Assembly (NCBI GenBank): GCA_022482815.1
Contig: JAKVOM010000001.1
Location: 992,001-1,056,000 of the forward strand
From: Acidaminococcus sp.
Lineage (GTDB): Bacteria > Bacillota > Negativicutes > Acidaminococcales > Acidaminococcaceae
Direction of reading: 5' to 3'
DNA: 64,000 nucleotides
Numbering within the stretch: position 1 is the stretch's first letter; each line of letters opens with the position of its first letter. Below, piece after piece: positions 1 through 64,000 of this stretch. The position numbers were made by a program, and so were the translations under genes. A model generated the notes under the pieces. That model was given only the letters and a program-made list of their open reading frames with translations. It did no database searches and was not told where the DNA came from.

Positions 1-241
1 AATCCTCCAGGAGTCTAAAAATCTTATTACCCTGGATGCGCTTGCACAAGTTAACTATGCTACCGTGCTGCTTCCGCGAAAACAGCTGTCAGCCGAGCTG
101 AAACGACGTGCTTATTTTTTTATTGATCCTAAGTACGCTGCCTATTATCCGCTATATGTGTCGGTAGCTAAAGGTGCTTATCGCTCATCAATGACTGAAA
201 AATTACTGGCTTTTCTCCGCAGCTTGATTTATACGTTTTAA
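1..241 (+). CDS. LysR-type transcriptional regulator, C-terminal end (partial)
   Basis: An open frame entering from the left edge (codons from base 2) gives the last 79 residues of a protein ending at TAA 239-241. The pattern is that of the end of a LysR substrate-binding domain: a short hydrophobic strand (ATVLLP), a stretch resembling PLYVSVAKGAYRS, and a final helix (LLAFLRSL). LysR regulators are homotetrameric activators that respond to a small ligand. The next gene in the same direction is a carboxylate-type permease, so this could be its regulator, although such regulators are more often divergent. The N-terminal DNA-binding domain is outside the window, so the family call rests on the C-terminus only. 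Confidence 0.55.
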   Translation, partial: ILQESKNLITLDALAQVNYATVLLPRKQLSAELKRRAYFFIDPKYAAYYPLYVSVAKGAYRSSMTEKLLAFLRSLIYTF

Positions 242-380
242 ATAGGTGAGACCGTAAAAAATAAAAAGATGTCTTGGCATTTAGCCTCACGTGCGTTGAC
301 ATAATGAACTTTGCGGATGATGAAAGGCAAAAAAGGGACTGCGAAAGAATGAATTTTCATTTTTCGCAGCCTCTTTTTTA
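241..380 (+). repeat. Truncated copy (R4) of the dispersed 3'-region repeat
   Basis: Bases 241-300 resemble the left end of the repeats at 10268, 13279 and 21138 (GACCGTAAAAAATAAAAAG, then GGCATTTAGCCTC). The copy then jumps to a terminator hairpin equivalent to their right end. The central long hairpin is missing, so this looks like an internal-deletion derivative. Confidence 0.5.
333..378 (+). terminator. Intrinsic terminator after the LysR gene
   Basis: A stem of AGGGACTGCGAAA with TTTCGCAGCCTCTTT around a short AT-rich loop is followed by a T run. It lies about 90 bases after the stop of the partial regulator. Confidence 0.75.
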
Positions 381-762
381 TTTCCGCTAACTGATGATGT
401 TCGTTTAAATTATATAAAAATCCATATGCCCCTATATAGATTCTGTATTTTTCAACGAAGTATTTATGGTGATACTGTTTAATAAACAAAAATTAAATGG
501 CGGATTAGAGGGGGGATGACAATGAAGATAAATAAAAAGAATATTAAAACAAGTAAGAGTCGAATTATACTGAAATGCGGTAAGTAACTTTTTACTAGAG
601 AAGGATTTGAAGCATCTGTCTGCTGCATGTTGCTTCTGGGATATGCCGCGGCGGGGACCGGTTCGGAAGAAGTTGTTGGGTTACCTGCAGTAAATCAGAC
701 AGTATGCCGCGCTGTTACGTATCGTAAGGATAGCGTAATGATGTTATTCGTGAGGTAGAAAA
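381..762. other. Intergenic stretch with a possible 21-codon ORF and gene-like debris
   Basis: ATG 522 to TAA 587 encodes 21 Lys-rich residues behind a strong GAGGGGGG ribosome site. From 588 to 757 the DNA becomes G+C-rich and one frame reads without stops for about 50 codons (containing GYAAAGTGSEEVVGLPAV) to TAG 756-758, just before the permease start. It has no start signal of its own. It looks like a decayed gene fragment or an extended leader. I do not recognise it. Confidence 0.25.
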
Positions 763-2067
763 ATGATTAACATAATTATCGTCATCAGTATTGTCATCGC
801 TATTGTTTTAGGCTTTAAAACAAAATATAACATTGGCTTCTTCGCCATGACGTTTGCCTATTTTATTGGCTGTTTTGGCTTGGGAATGAAGCCAAAAGCC
901 ATTATTGCGCTTTGGCCTATCAGTACGTTCTTTGTCATTTTTTCCGTCGGTTTATTTTATAATTTTGCCGTTGTTAACGGCACGATGGAGAAAATTGCCG
1001 GCTACGCATTGTACGCGACTCGCAAATTCCCTGATTTCTTGCCGCTGATCATTTACTTAGCCAGTGTTTTTGTTGCTGCTTTAGGTGCCGGCTTCTTTAC
1101 TGTTATGGCTGTTTTTTGTCCTATGACGCTGATTCTCTGCGAAAAAGCACACCAGAATAAGTTGATAGGGGCTTCAGCCGTTAACTGGGGAGCCTTGTCC
1201 GGAGCCAATCTTATGACGAGCGGATCTGGTGTTGTCTTTCAGGGGCTCATTAAAGATGCCGGCTACGAAGAACAGGCTTTTGTCATGGGGATTCCTCTTT
1301 TCGTGGTCACGGTTGTCTACCCTATCGTTGTTTTGTTAATTTATATTCTTGGTAAACGCTTGTTAGGAAAAGGCGTGCGGGGAAGTTTGGAAGTGCCTCG
1401 TCCCCAGCCGTTTGACGCAACGCAGAAAAAGACACTGATGCTGATGGCACTTACCATTGTATTAGTTCTGATTTTCCCAATTATGCATATCATAATGCCT
1501 GGTAATGCTGTTATTTCACGAGTCAATGCCAGCATAGATATTGGTCTGGTCTGCATTGTTATGTCGGTTGTTGCGTTGTTTATGCATCTGGGTTCCCAGA
1601 AAGCCGTTGTAGATAAAGTGCCCTGGAATACCATCATCATGATTTGTGGTGTCGGGATGCTGATTAAAGTGGCAGTTAAGGCTGGTCTGATTGATATTAT
1701 TGGTGCCTGGATCGGTGGAAATATTCCTATTTTCTGGCTGCCTGTGGCCTTTGCGTTTATCGGTGCCGTGATGTCCTTCTTCAGCAGTACGCTGAGCGTG
1801 GTAGCCCCGGCCCTGTATCCGGTGGTAGGTGCTATGTGTGCGGCGAATCCGGCTCTCAATCCTGCTGTTCTTTTTGCAGCTGTTGTCTGCGGAGCACAGT
1901 CTTCCAATATTTCCCCATTTTCGTCCGGAGGTTCGCTTATTCAGGGCTCTTGCCAGAACGATGAAGAACGTGACTGGCTTTTCCCACGACAGATATTTAT
2001 CGGTGTTCCTATAAGTGTTGGATCAGCTTGTATTGCTACCCTTATTATGAGCTTGATATTAAAATAA
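763..2067 (+). CDS. SLC13/MatC-type dicarboxylate permease
   Basis: The 434-residue, almost entirely hydrophobic protein has about 11-12 predicted membrane segments. The pattern is that of the ion-transporter superfamily: two halves (about 1-200 and 230-434) joined by a polar cytoplasmic loop around residues 205-225. Each half carries a Ser/Gly/Asn-rich re-entrant motif, SGANLMTSGSG near 150 and SSNISPFSSGG near 385. Members of the MatC/SLC13 group carry malonate, C4-dicarboxylates or related anions, usually with Na+ or H+. The substrate cannot be read from sequence. GAGGTAG lies six bases before ATG 763. The gene stands alone between the LysR fragment and a terminator at 2167. Confidence 0.75.
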   Translation: MINIIIVISIVIAIVLGFKTKYNIGFFAMTFAYFIGCFGLGMKPKAIIALWPISTFFVIFSVGLFYNFAVVNGTMEKIAGYALYATRKFPDFLPLIIYLASVFVAALGAGFFTVMAVFCPMTLILCEKAHQNKLIGASAVNWGALSGANLMTSGSGVVFQGLIKDAGYEEQAFVMGIPLFVVTVVYPIVVLLIYILGKRLLGKGVRGSLEVPRPQPFDATQKKTLMLMALTIVLVLIFPIMHIIMPGNAVISRVNASIDIGLVCIVMSVVALFMHLGSQKAVVDKVPWNTIIMICGVGMLIKVAVKAGLIDIIGAWIGGNIPIFWLPVAFAFIGAVMSFFSSTLSVVAPALYPVVGAMCAANPALNPAVLFAAVVCGAQSSNISPFSSGGSLIQGSCQNDEERDWLFPRQIFIGVPISVGSACIATLIMSLILK

Positions 2068-21522: not shown

Positions 21523-21543
21523 TAGATGTCACAACTGAATATG

Positions 21544-21645
21544 CTCATCAAGAGTAGGGGAGGGAATGGCCCTGTGAACCTACAGCAACCATGGCCGTAT
21601 GACCAACGGTGCTAAATCCTGCAATGTTTTTTGTTGTGAGATGAG
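21544..21645 (+). ncRNA. SAM-I riboswitch (S box)
   Basis: The diagnostic S-box blocks appear in order: CTCATCAAGAGTAGGGGAGGG, TGGCCCTGTGAA, CAGCAACC, GGTGCTAAATCC and the closing GAGATGAG. These form the P1-P4 core that binds S-adenosylmethionine. It is followed by a terminator at 21656. High SAM should therefore stop transcription before metK. Confidence 0.95.
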
Positions 21646-21655
21646 AGTTGATAGG

Positions 21656-50867: not shown

Positions 50868-52425
<1,558 letters not shown>

Positions 52426-59710: not shown

Positions 59711-59756
59711 CAAAGGGTTGTGAAAGGTGATTCTTCCTTTCACAACCCTTTTTTGT
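59711..59756. terminator. Bidirectional terminator between the binding protein and the Crp/Fnr gene
   Basis: CAAAGGGTTGTGAAAGG(tgattctt)CCTTTCACAACCCTTTTTTG, an almost perfect stem. It separates converging genes. Confidence 0.88.
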
Positions 59757-63289: not shown

Positions 63290-63435
63290 CGCTACAATGC
63301 AGGTAAAGAAAGACGAAATCGCAAAAGGTTCTGCTCCTTCAGTTATTGGGGAGCAAAAAGAACGAGATGGGAGCGAGTCCAATGGGCAGCGATAGCAAGT
63401 AACCACAGGAAGTTTAAACCGATAGGAGGTTTTCT

Positions 63436-63483
63436 TATGGTTATGTTCAATGGGATTCCAAGGTACATGTTGGAAGAACATTA
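63436..63483 (+). CDS. Possible 15-codon mini-ORF with strong ribosome site
   Basis: AGGAGG (63425) lies six bases before ATG 63437 (within a base of the coordinate given) and an ORF reading MVMFNGIPRYMLEEH to TAA. It lies inside the putative large RNA and may be chance. A following ATG behind AAGAAGGGAG opens a 10-codon ORF. Confidence 0.25.
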
Positions 63484-63907
63484 AGAAGGGAGATAGTCCA
63501 ATGGGCCAGGAAATGGGTGGTCGCGAATTGTGATCACAAAGGATACGAAGAATCCGAACGAGACGAGTTTTCAGAAGTAAACCTCTAAAGAGAGGAACGT
63601 GACGGGGTTTAGTCCCGATGTGGAAATAATTTCAAGTGGTTCTTCTTACAACTGAATAGCGAACGAATGTCTATGGTTGGTAAGCAGGCGAGGAGATGAT
63701 CCAGCGTCTTTCATCCCGAGCGGATGAATGCAGTTCTGATGATTTATCGACCGATATCTCAGCTAAGGCGGATATCGACGTGGAAGATAGATCGGTTGTC
63801 CTGGAAGCTTGCGGGCAGCCAGAGATTAAAAGAAGGGAATGAGTCCGAAATACAATGCAGGATAGTGAAATCGAGTCAATAAATTTGCGATTGGGTTTTT
63901 CGAGTGA

Positions 63908-63953
63908 AGAAATCTGATCGGCCGATGAGTCAGTCGGCCGGTCAGATTTTTTA
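63908..63953 (+). terminator. Terminator of the putative large RNA
   Basis: AAATCTGAtCGGCCGA(tgagtcag)TCGGCCGgTCAGATTTTTT, about 15 bp with one mismatch, then a T run. Confidence 0.92.
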
Positions 63954-63960
63954 TTAGTTA

Positions 63961-63982
63961 AGTCAAACCTTTAGGTTTGACT
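63961..63982. repeat. Perfect palindrome at the right edge
   Basis: AGTCAAACCT-TT-AGGTTTGACT. It could be a terminator or a transposon-end hairpin. Read on the minus strand, the last 30 bases of the window are open and end in TAA within this palindrome (KEVAEDSQT-stop), so a minus-strand gene may run in from the right. Confidence 0.5.
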
Positions 63983-64000
63983 ATCCTCTGCCACCTCCTT

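Follow-up and report, generated by a model that had tools for sequence, protein, structure and literature searches.

The giant bacterial RNAs ROOL, GOLLD, OLE and HEARO are the closest described counterparts in scale of the RNA reported here, which lies in a 64,000-nucleotide stretch (hereafter the window) of a 3.06-Mb Acidaminococcus genome and is like them in size, in standing alone, in having a closing stem and in lacking a known protein product. In contrast to these RNAs, the window RNA carries repeated ribosome start sites, most of its relatives are small, and it gave no match to their Rfam models at E values up to 5. SR1 and RNAIII are dual-function small RNAs with a short ORF, and the likeness to them lies in a stand-alone RNA with a Shine-Dalgarno (SD) sequence and a short reading frame; in the minigene RNAs described below, however, the frame mostly has two or three codons, specifies no conserved peptide and is repeated within one RNA. 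Lambda bar is a start-stop minigene made of an SD, an AUG and a very early stop, and the same three parts recur in the minigene RNAs, but here they are set in a conserved structured RNA gene with its own predicted promoter and terminator, and the second codon is always Gly.

Within the same bacterial class, the Negativicutes motifs gltD, ldh2, ilvD and potE are located 5' of the named genes, and the accessible part of the source contains no description of the minigene element (PMC8632094). Genome screens covering the Negativicutes report, in the portions available, other motifs (PMC8632094, PMC6429828), and a literature search, with most subscription journals outside its scope, found no paper describing the element. 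Rfam at the gathering score returned no match for 63298-63955, and at E<=5 the sole entry was an sRNA model that matched the terminator below its threshold, so that no membership of any Rfam family, including ROOL, GOLLD, OLE, HEARO, tmRNA, 6S, SRP and RNase P, was found; 15 relative loci likewise gave no Rfam match at the element. An earlier reading of the DNA letters (the sequence-only reading) had noted that the landmarks of tmRNA, RNase P, SRP, 6S and group II introns were absent and had proposed a check against all Rfam models, which agreed with it and yielded no known family even at E=5. The RNA family is absent from Rfam and has an unusual conserved feature.

The RNA gene and its homologues in Acidaminococcus

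Judged by its sequence, 63298-63955 holds an RNA gene of the gut bacterium Acidaminococcus that has its own terminator, overlaps no protein gene and was previously uncatalogued (Table 1). The longest plus-strand frames in this region have 48 and 52 codons, no ORF exceeds 52 aa, and the three longest frames gave no Pfam family above the cut-off. The G+C content is 45% in the RNA region vs 25% in the 240 bases 5' of the RNA; 20 pairs form in the predicted fold of the terminator hairpin (63910-63949), which is conserved in the congener G006. Thus the gene-free stretch, the base composition unlike its surroundings and the very strong intrinsic terminator of the sequence-only reading were all borne out. 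Its CTACAAT-type −10 fared less evenly, since TACAAT is present and the stretch upstream of it is common to G006, but a simple sigma-70 scan gave no promoter pair at 63293-63298; because of this, the −10 call rests on the motif and on the GATACGNTACAAT common to G006. The gene 3' of the RNA, which we take from reading of its protein to be a transporter-like ORF, lies on the opposite strand (L007 1348-2361) and is convergent, so the window RNA cannot be its leader, and has a terminator and a putative promoter of its own. Directly 3' of the terminator (63956-64000 and L007 955-1140) is a repeat with GTCAAACCTTTAGGTTTGAC and TTCCACGAAGTCGGAAGGAG, and a similar sequence is found near genome position 642215 (L055). 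Elsewhere in the window, between two genes at 59714-59751, there is a strong inverted repeat (AGGGTTGTGAAAGG/CCTTTCACAACCCT) that is probably a two-way terminator.

Table 1. Positions of the RNA gene, its parts and its homologues
Feature	Position	Strand	Remarks
RNA gene, about 650 nt	63298..63955	+	homologues L008, L010, L011; no Rfam match
Putative −10 box TACAAT	63293..63298	+	inferred promoter; preceding ACACTGGTATTT..GATACGNTACAAT conserved in G006
Closing stem, long-range, 5' strand	63308..63322	+	pairs with 63887-63901
Site 1, GGGAGCGAGTCCAATGGGC	63369..63387	+	extended SD and start
Mini-ORF of site 1, MGSDSK*	63382..63402	+	G006 MGSTGT*, G003 MG*
Hairpin GTAACCA/TGGTTAT	63399..63444	+	invariant AGGAGGTTT in upper part, next start codon in stem
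Second SD, AGGAGGTTT	63424..63432	+	invariant
Middle mini-ORF, MVMFNGIPRYMLEEH*	63437..63484	+	read from the sequence
Site 2, GGGAGATAGTCCAATGGGC	63488..63506	+	
Mini-ORF of site 2, MGQEMGGREL*	63501..63533	+	G006 MGQKKGDRPQ*, G007 MGHLDGGYRW*
Hairpin P5	63517..63537	+	3' of site 2; 8 pairs
boxA-like ACAACTGAATAG	63648..63659	+	conserved in G006 (one change) and G007
AGGAGATGATCCAGC	63691..63705	+	holds the fourth GGA-N5-TCC; 14/15 complementary to 16S 3' end
Site 3, GAAGGGAATGAGTCCGAAATACA	63832..63854	+	left half as in sites 1 and 2, no ATGGGC
Closing stem, 3' strand	63887..63901	+	pairs with 63308-63322
Intrinsic terminator	63910..63955	+	sequence strongly conserved in G006
Homologue L008	708-1	minus	
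Homologue L010	about 113-715		
Homologue L011	about 576-1150		

A blastn search of 59 genomes of the family matched the RNA in three other Acidaminococcus genomes, one of which, G003, is A. intestini DSM 21505, and in no genus besides Acidaminococcus; comparison with these three congeners demonstrates both the RNA gene and its conservation in relatives, which the sequence-only reading had put forward as a check. In two of the homologue copies the RNA lies upstream of a gene that matches dapF of the window genome (presumably dapF, from reading of its protein), and the window RNA lies 3.8 kb from its own dapF. In the four-way alignment, which for the giant form comprises four sequences in all (the window and three congeners), the longest invariant blocks are AGUCC-AUGGGC, AGGAGGUUU, GAAGGG-GA-AGUCCAAUGGGCCA and AAAUACA, and they fall mainly at the sites. 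The draft contigs C38 and C49 of G006 (L008 1-100 and L009 1-106) both hold the terminator end of the RNA and look like two sides of one assembly break.

Start sites, mini-ORFs and fold of the window RNA

Copies of GGA-N5-TCC are found at 63370, 63489, 63692 and 63836, and these four compare with a mean of 0.21 in shuffles, none of 1000 shuffles reaching four. The sequence-only reading had noted the four copies as mini-hairpins; all four are present, in excess of chance expectation, but three are the core of an SD and start-codon element, marking either GGGAGNNAGUCCAAUGGGC, in which the SD is joined to the start codon, or a start-less variant of it. Aligned, sites 1 and 2 read GGGAG-N2-AGUCCAAUGGGC, that is, an SD, eight bases and AUG GGC, and site 3 has AAAUACA where they have AUGGGC. 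Site 2 is the sole place in the 3.06-Mb genome with up to three mismatches from the class-wide element described below. Other copies of AGTCCAATGGGC in the same genome lie mostly inside coding sequence and were dismissed as chance. Between sites 1 and 2, the fully conserved AGGAGGUUU stands 5' of another start, and the AGGAGATGATCCAGC stretch at 63691-63705 is not conserved in G006.

The frames of sites 1 and 2 have 6 and 10 codons in the window and 2 and 21 in G003; the Acidaminococcus mini-ORFs (2 to 21 codons) are longer than those of the small RNAs. In all four homologues the middle mini-ORF is open for 14-15 codons and its stop (TAA, TGA or TAG) falls just 5' of site 2; the placement of the stop matches, its kind differs, and the amino acids are not conserved. 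The boxA-like ACAACTGAATAG, similar to GAGAACTGAATATTG in the rRNA leader within the window, may have an antitermination role, which would fit an untranslated transcript in need of protection from Rho. Another ACAACTGAAT occurs at 21531-21540, just 5' of a SAM riboswitch (21542-21647), and may be chance.

In the window, the 16S rRNA has ...GGCUGGAUCACCUCCUUUCU as its 3' end, with GGATCACC at 52410, and the predicted pairing of the sites with it extends past the usual SD, through AGGAGG, GA, one extra base and UCC against GGA. Duplexes between the sites and the 16S tail have −12.5 to −19.7 kcal/mol, compared with −11.5 as the median of the best start per ORF in the window, and AGGAGATGATCCAGC (63691-63705) reaches −27.1 against the 16S end in its scan interval. 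Many site duplexes beat their own shuffles, several small-RNA sites do not, and the number of 16S-complementary stretches per RNA was not above that of purine-rich shuffles. Site 3 and tandem 3' copies in four other Acidaminococcus genomes keep the 16S complementarity without a start codon. Because a mismatch and an extra base relative to the 16S tail are conserved, the element is not selected simply for the longest pairing. The predicted duplexes suggest that 30S subunits would bind at the sites.

The tandem copies, which resemble site 3, were found in four other Acidaminococcus genomes (G001, G004, G005 and G008) as two GGGGTGAGTCCAAAATACA (or GAGGTG..) 51 bases apart, followed by ACAACTGAATA or a variant and then by a terminator (L028 minus, L029 minus, L030, L063). 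They follow the gene for a 175-aa secreted protein, the start of which is CAGGAGG..TTCCAATGGGCC; its orthologues in the window genome and G003, 61-64% identical, are without the tandem copies, ACAACTGAATA, the terminator and the element start. A PepSY label for the secreted protein of those other Acidaminococcus genomes was dropped as unsupported by Pfam.

The fold z-score of the window RNA is −6.2 with the terminator and −1.7 without it, and −1.2 to −2.3 in the three homologues. Because the score falls to −1.7 once the terminator is removed, the claim of structure rests on comparison and not on energy. The closing stem has 13 of 15 pairs in the window and 14 of 15 in G006, against 5-9 in slid controls, with 1 compensatory change; it was looked for in G003 and G007 and not found there. 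In hairpin P5, 100% of scored cells are paired and 3 pairs have changes on both sides, although among few sequences, and by eye the outer pairs of the 63399-63444 hairpin co-change in G007 (AUCAU/AUGAU) and G003 (AUCUUAU/AUAAGAU). Comparison of these few sequences demonstrates some conserved helices with compensatory changes (P5 and the closing stem). The RNA is indeed hairpin-rich, as had been proposed, but, by its fold z-score without the terminator, less so than it appears.

The minigene element across the Negativicutes

A core covariance model built from the four Acidaminococcus sequences only was used to search 380 genomes of the class; beyond those four it gave weaker matches in three other genera, and the distant two-site RNAs L091 and L092 were reached at E values of 6.5e-5 and 1.6e-4. 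Sequence comparison demonstrates a related, class-wide element, AGGAGGNGANUCCRAUGGGC, of which L091 and L092 (about 0.4 kb) and L094 and L095 (about 0.2 kb), all stand-alone and with promoter-like and terminator sequences, carry one or two copies followed by an immediate stop, as in AUG GGC CCG UAA and AUG GGC CAG UAA. With up to three mismatches, the pattern was found in 55 of the 380 class genomes vs about six reversed-control hits, some of these matches being gene starts or chance that were set aside by hand. A stricter pattern that included the stop codon matched 34 of the 189 genomes of family f20 (to judge by its size, probably the Selenomonadaceae), with 0 control hits; across the eight genera concerned, the element is mostly in stand-alone promoter-to-terminator RNAs. 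The minigene-group element, (A)GGAG(G)N(G)A(N)UCCRAUGGGC, is present at window sites 1 and 2 with a spacing one base shorter than in f20, and because of this difference the pattern GGNGNNAGTCCRATGGGC missed the f20 forms.

The sequence-only reading had placed the window RNA among the giant RNAs. What stands is that the RNA gene is real, large and conserved and has a terminator of its own; what does not is an isolated giant like ROOL or GOLLD, because the element recurs in other Negativicutes, in many RNAs of 0.2-0.4 kb and in a few mRNAs. Homology of the giant and small RNAs is seen within the element only, and the giant RNA is probably the Acidaminococcus member of this minigene RNA family.

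Of the 37 non-coding sites outside Acidaminococcus, 34 reach a stop within four codons when read in the AUG frame, whereas only 3 and 5 do so in the other two frames. TAA, TAG and TGA are all used, mostly at codon 3 or 4. Because the stops are concentrated in this frame and vary in kind, the reading frame is selected beyond what RNA structure alone would impose, and the comparison of frames demonstrates that the small forms are under selection for an early stop in frame. Their minigenes are MG*, MGP*, MGQ*, MGR* and MGH*, with peptides of 2-6 residues in which the second is always Gly and the third is free (Pro, Arg, Gln, His). No conserved encoded peptide was found among the minigene RNAs, the peptides differing beyond Met-Gly.

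The element also occurs in mRNAs and next to genes. In family f33 a small cupin gene (L093, L155; MGCERIEN.., MGTERIEN..) has it as its ribosome-binding site, with a short 5' hairpin. In f20, many small RNAs lie same-strand 5' of an IMPDH or DUF362 gene: minigene RNAs and a terminator precede DUF362 genes in several genera (L136, L138, L158, L160, L120) and IMPDH in genus g63 (L094, L123-L132), the Pfam naming of these neighbours covering L136 and L094 only. Because of this arrangement a cis role is possible in f20; gene order rules it out in the window. In one subtype (L136, L140-L145, L148, L157, L160) the terminator loop GGUGACGAGAAAGC hardly varies, a conservation beyond the needs of a terminator, and the loop is a possible base-pairing seed. 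In some RNAs (L091, L092, L116-L118, L125, L136) a second short frame follows the MGx stop, starts with ACATGGA(N)AA and ends 5' of the terminator, giving peptides such as MENQTESR*, MDNQTESK* and MEKLHYEK*; whether it codes is uncertain because the frame is shifted in the relative L159. Searches of phage and plasmid collections gave no accepted match, matches in viral contigs at phage and coding starts being judged chance, and a pattern match in Melioribacteraceae (L015) was rejected as lying inside a coding gene.

Alternative explanations and a possible role at the ribosome

The reading that we prefer, and to which we give roughly even confidence, is that of an independently transcribed structured RNA that is the long, multi-site Acidaminococcus form of Negativicutes-wide minigene RNAs and engages ribosomes. 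A large structural or scaffold RNA like ROOL or GOLLD, free of translation and with GGA-N5-UCC serving as three-pair mini-hairpins or oligomer contacts, would account for the size, the closing stem and the covarying hairpin, and the GGA and UCC halves are kept in most sites, where three pairs with 5-6-base loops are possible. We nevertheless regard it as unlikely, since it leaves unexplained the AUG with early in-frame stops of varying kind and the use of the element to start real genes (cupin, L093; secreted protein, L063), and most members are only 0.2-0.4 kb and without an Rfam match to such RNAs. That the element starts a few real genes, and that GNGAGUCCAA is retained at site 3 and its tandem 3' copies although they have no start codon, would suit an RNA-protein binding site, with the RNA as a sponge titrating a repressor or chaperone whose targets are the genes starting with the element; no candidate protein was found, however, and the selected stop codons of the mini-ORFs are left unexplained, which makes this fairly improbable.

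A polycistronic mRNA for functional micropeptides would be expected to show strong SDs and SD-ATG-stop frames kept in all four homologues, as is the case, but the peptides are alike only in Met-Gly and those of the small RNAs have 2-6 residues with a free third residue, and we consider such an mRNA quite improbable. The position of many f20 small RNAs same-strand 5' of IMPDH or DUF362 genes is what a cis-acting attenuator would predict, in which a ribosome on the mini-ORF decides on the terminator before the next gene; given that the next gene is convergent in the window and that L095 and L140/L141 have their next large frame on the opposite strand, there is very little to recommend it. The short frames, and nothing beyond them, would be compatible with a decayed gene or chance. 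The sequence-only reading had named a decayed coding gene as a possible refutation; no Pfam match above the cut-off was obtained and invariant blocks and covariation were found instead, together with homologues in congeners and a class-wide element, so that this explanation is scarcely credible.

Under the preferred reading of a ribosome-engaging minigene RNA, sites 1 and 2 each present a strong extended SD with AUG-Gly and a stop a few codons later, and 30S subunits, to judge from the complementarity to the 16S 3' end, would dock at several sites, start and terminate at once. This predicted engagement of ribosomes we consider somewhat probable. Least certain is what follows: the cycle of ribosome loading and release may set the fold, stability or activity of the RNA, and if occupancy sets its fold or lifetime the RNA would report translation status or hold back ribosomes in trans. 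Such a regulatory use is proposed as a doubtful possibility. We put forward only tentatively, and with slightly less doubt, that there may be an undescribed RNA class built around start-Gly-stop minigenes, ranging from 0.2-kb single-site to 0.65-kb multi-site forms, that would sense or control translation via abortive initiation-termination.

The proposed relationship accounts for the failure of cmscan alone to place the window RNA, and it ties a large orphan RNA to translation in a concrete way that is open to testing. If it is true, the Negativicutes, which are common in gut and mouth, carry conserved RNA genes whose chief feature is a ribosome start followed by a near-immediate stop, and these would represent a new way for an RNA to meet the ribosome, be it as a sensor, a sponge or a hibernation aid.
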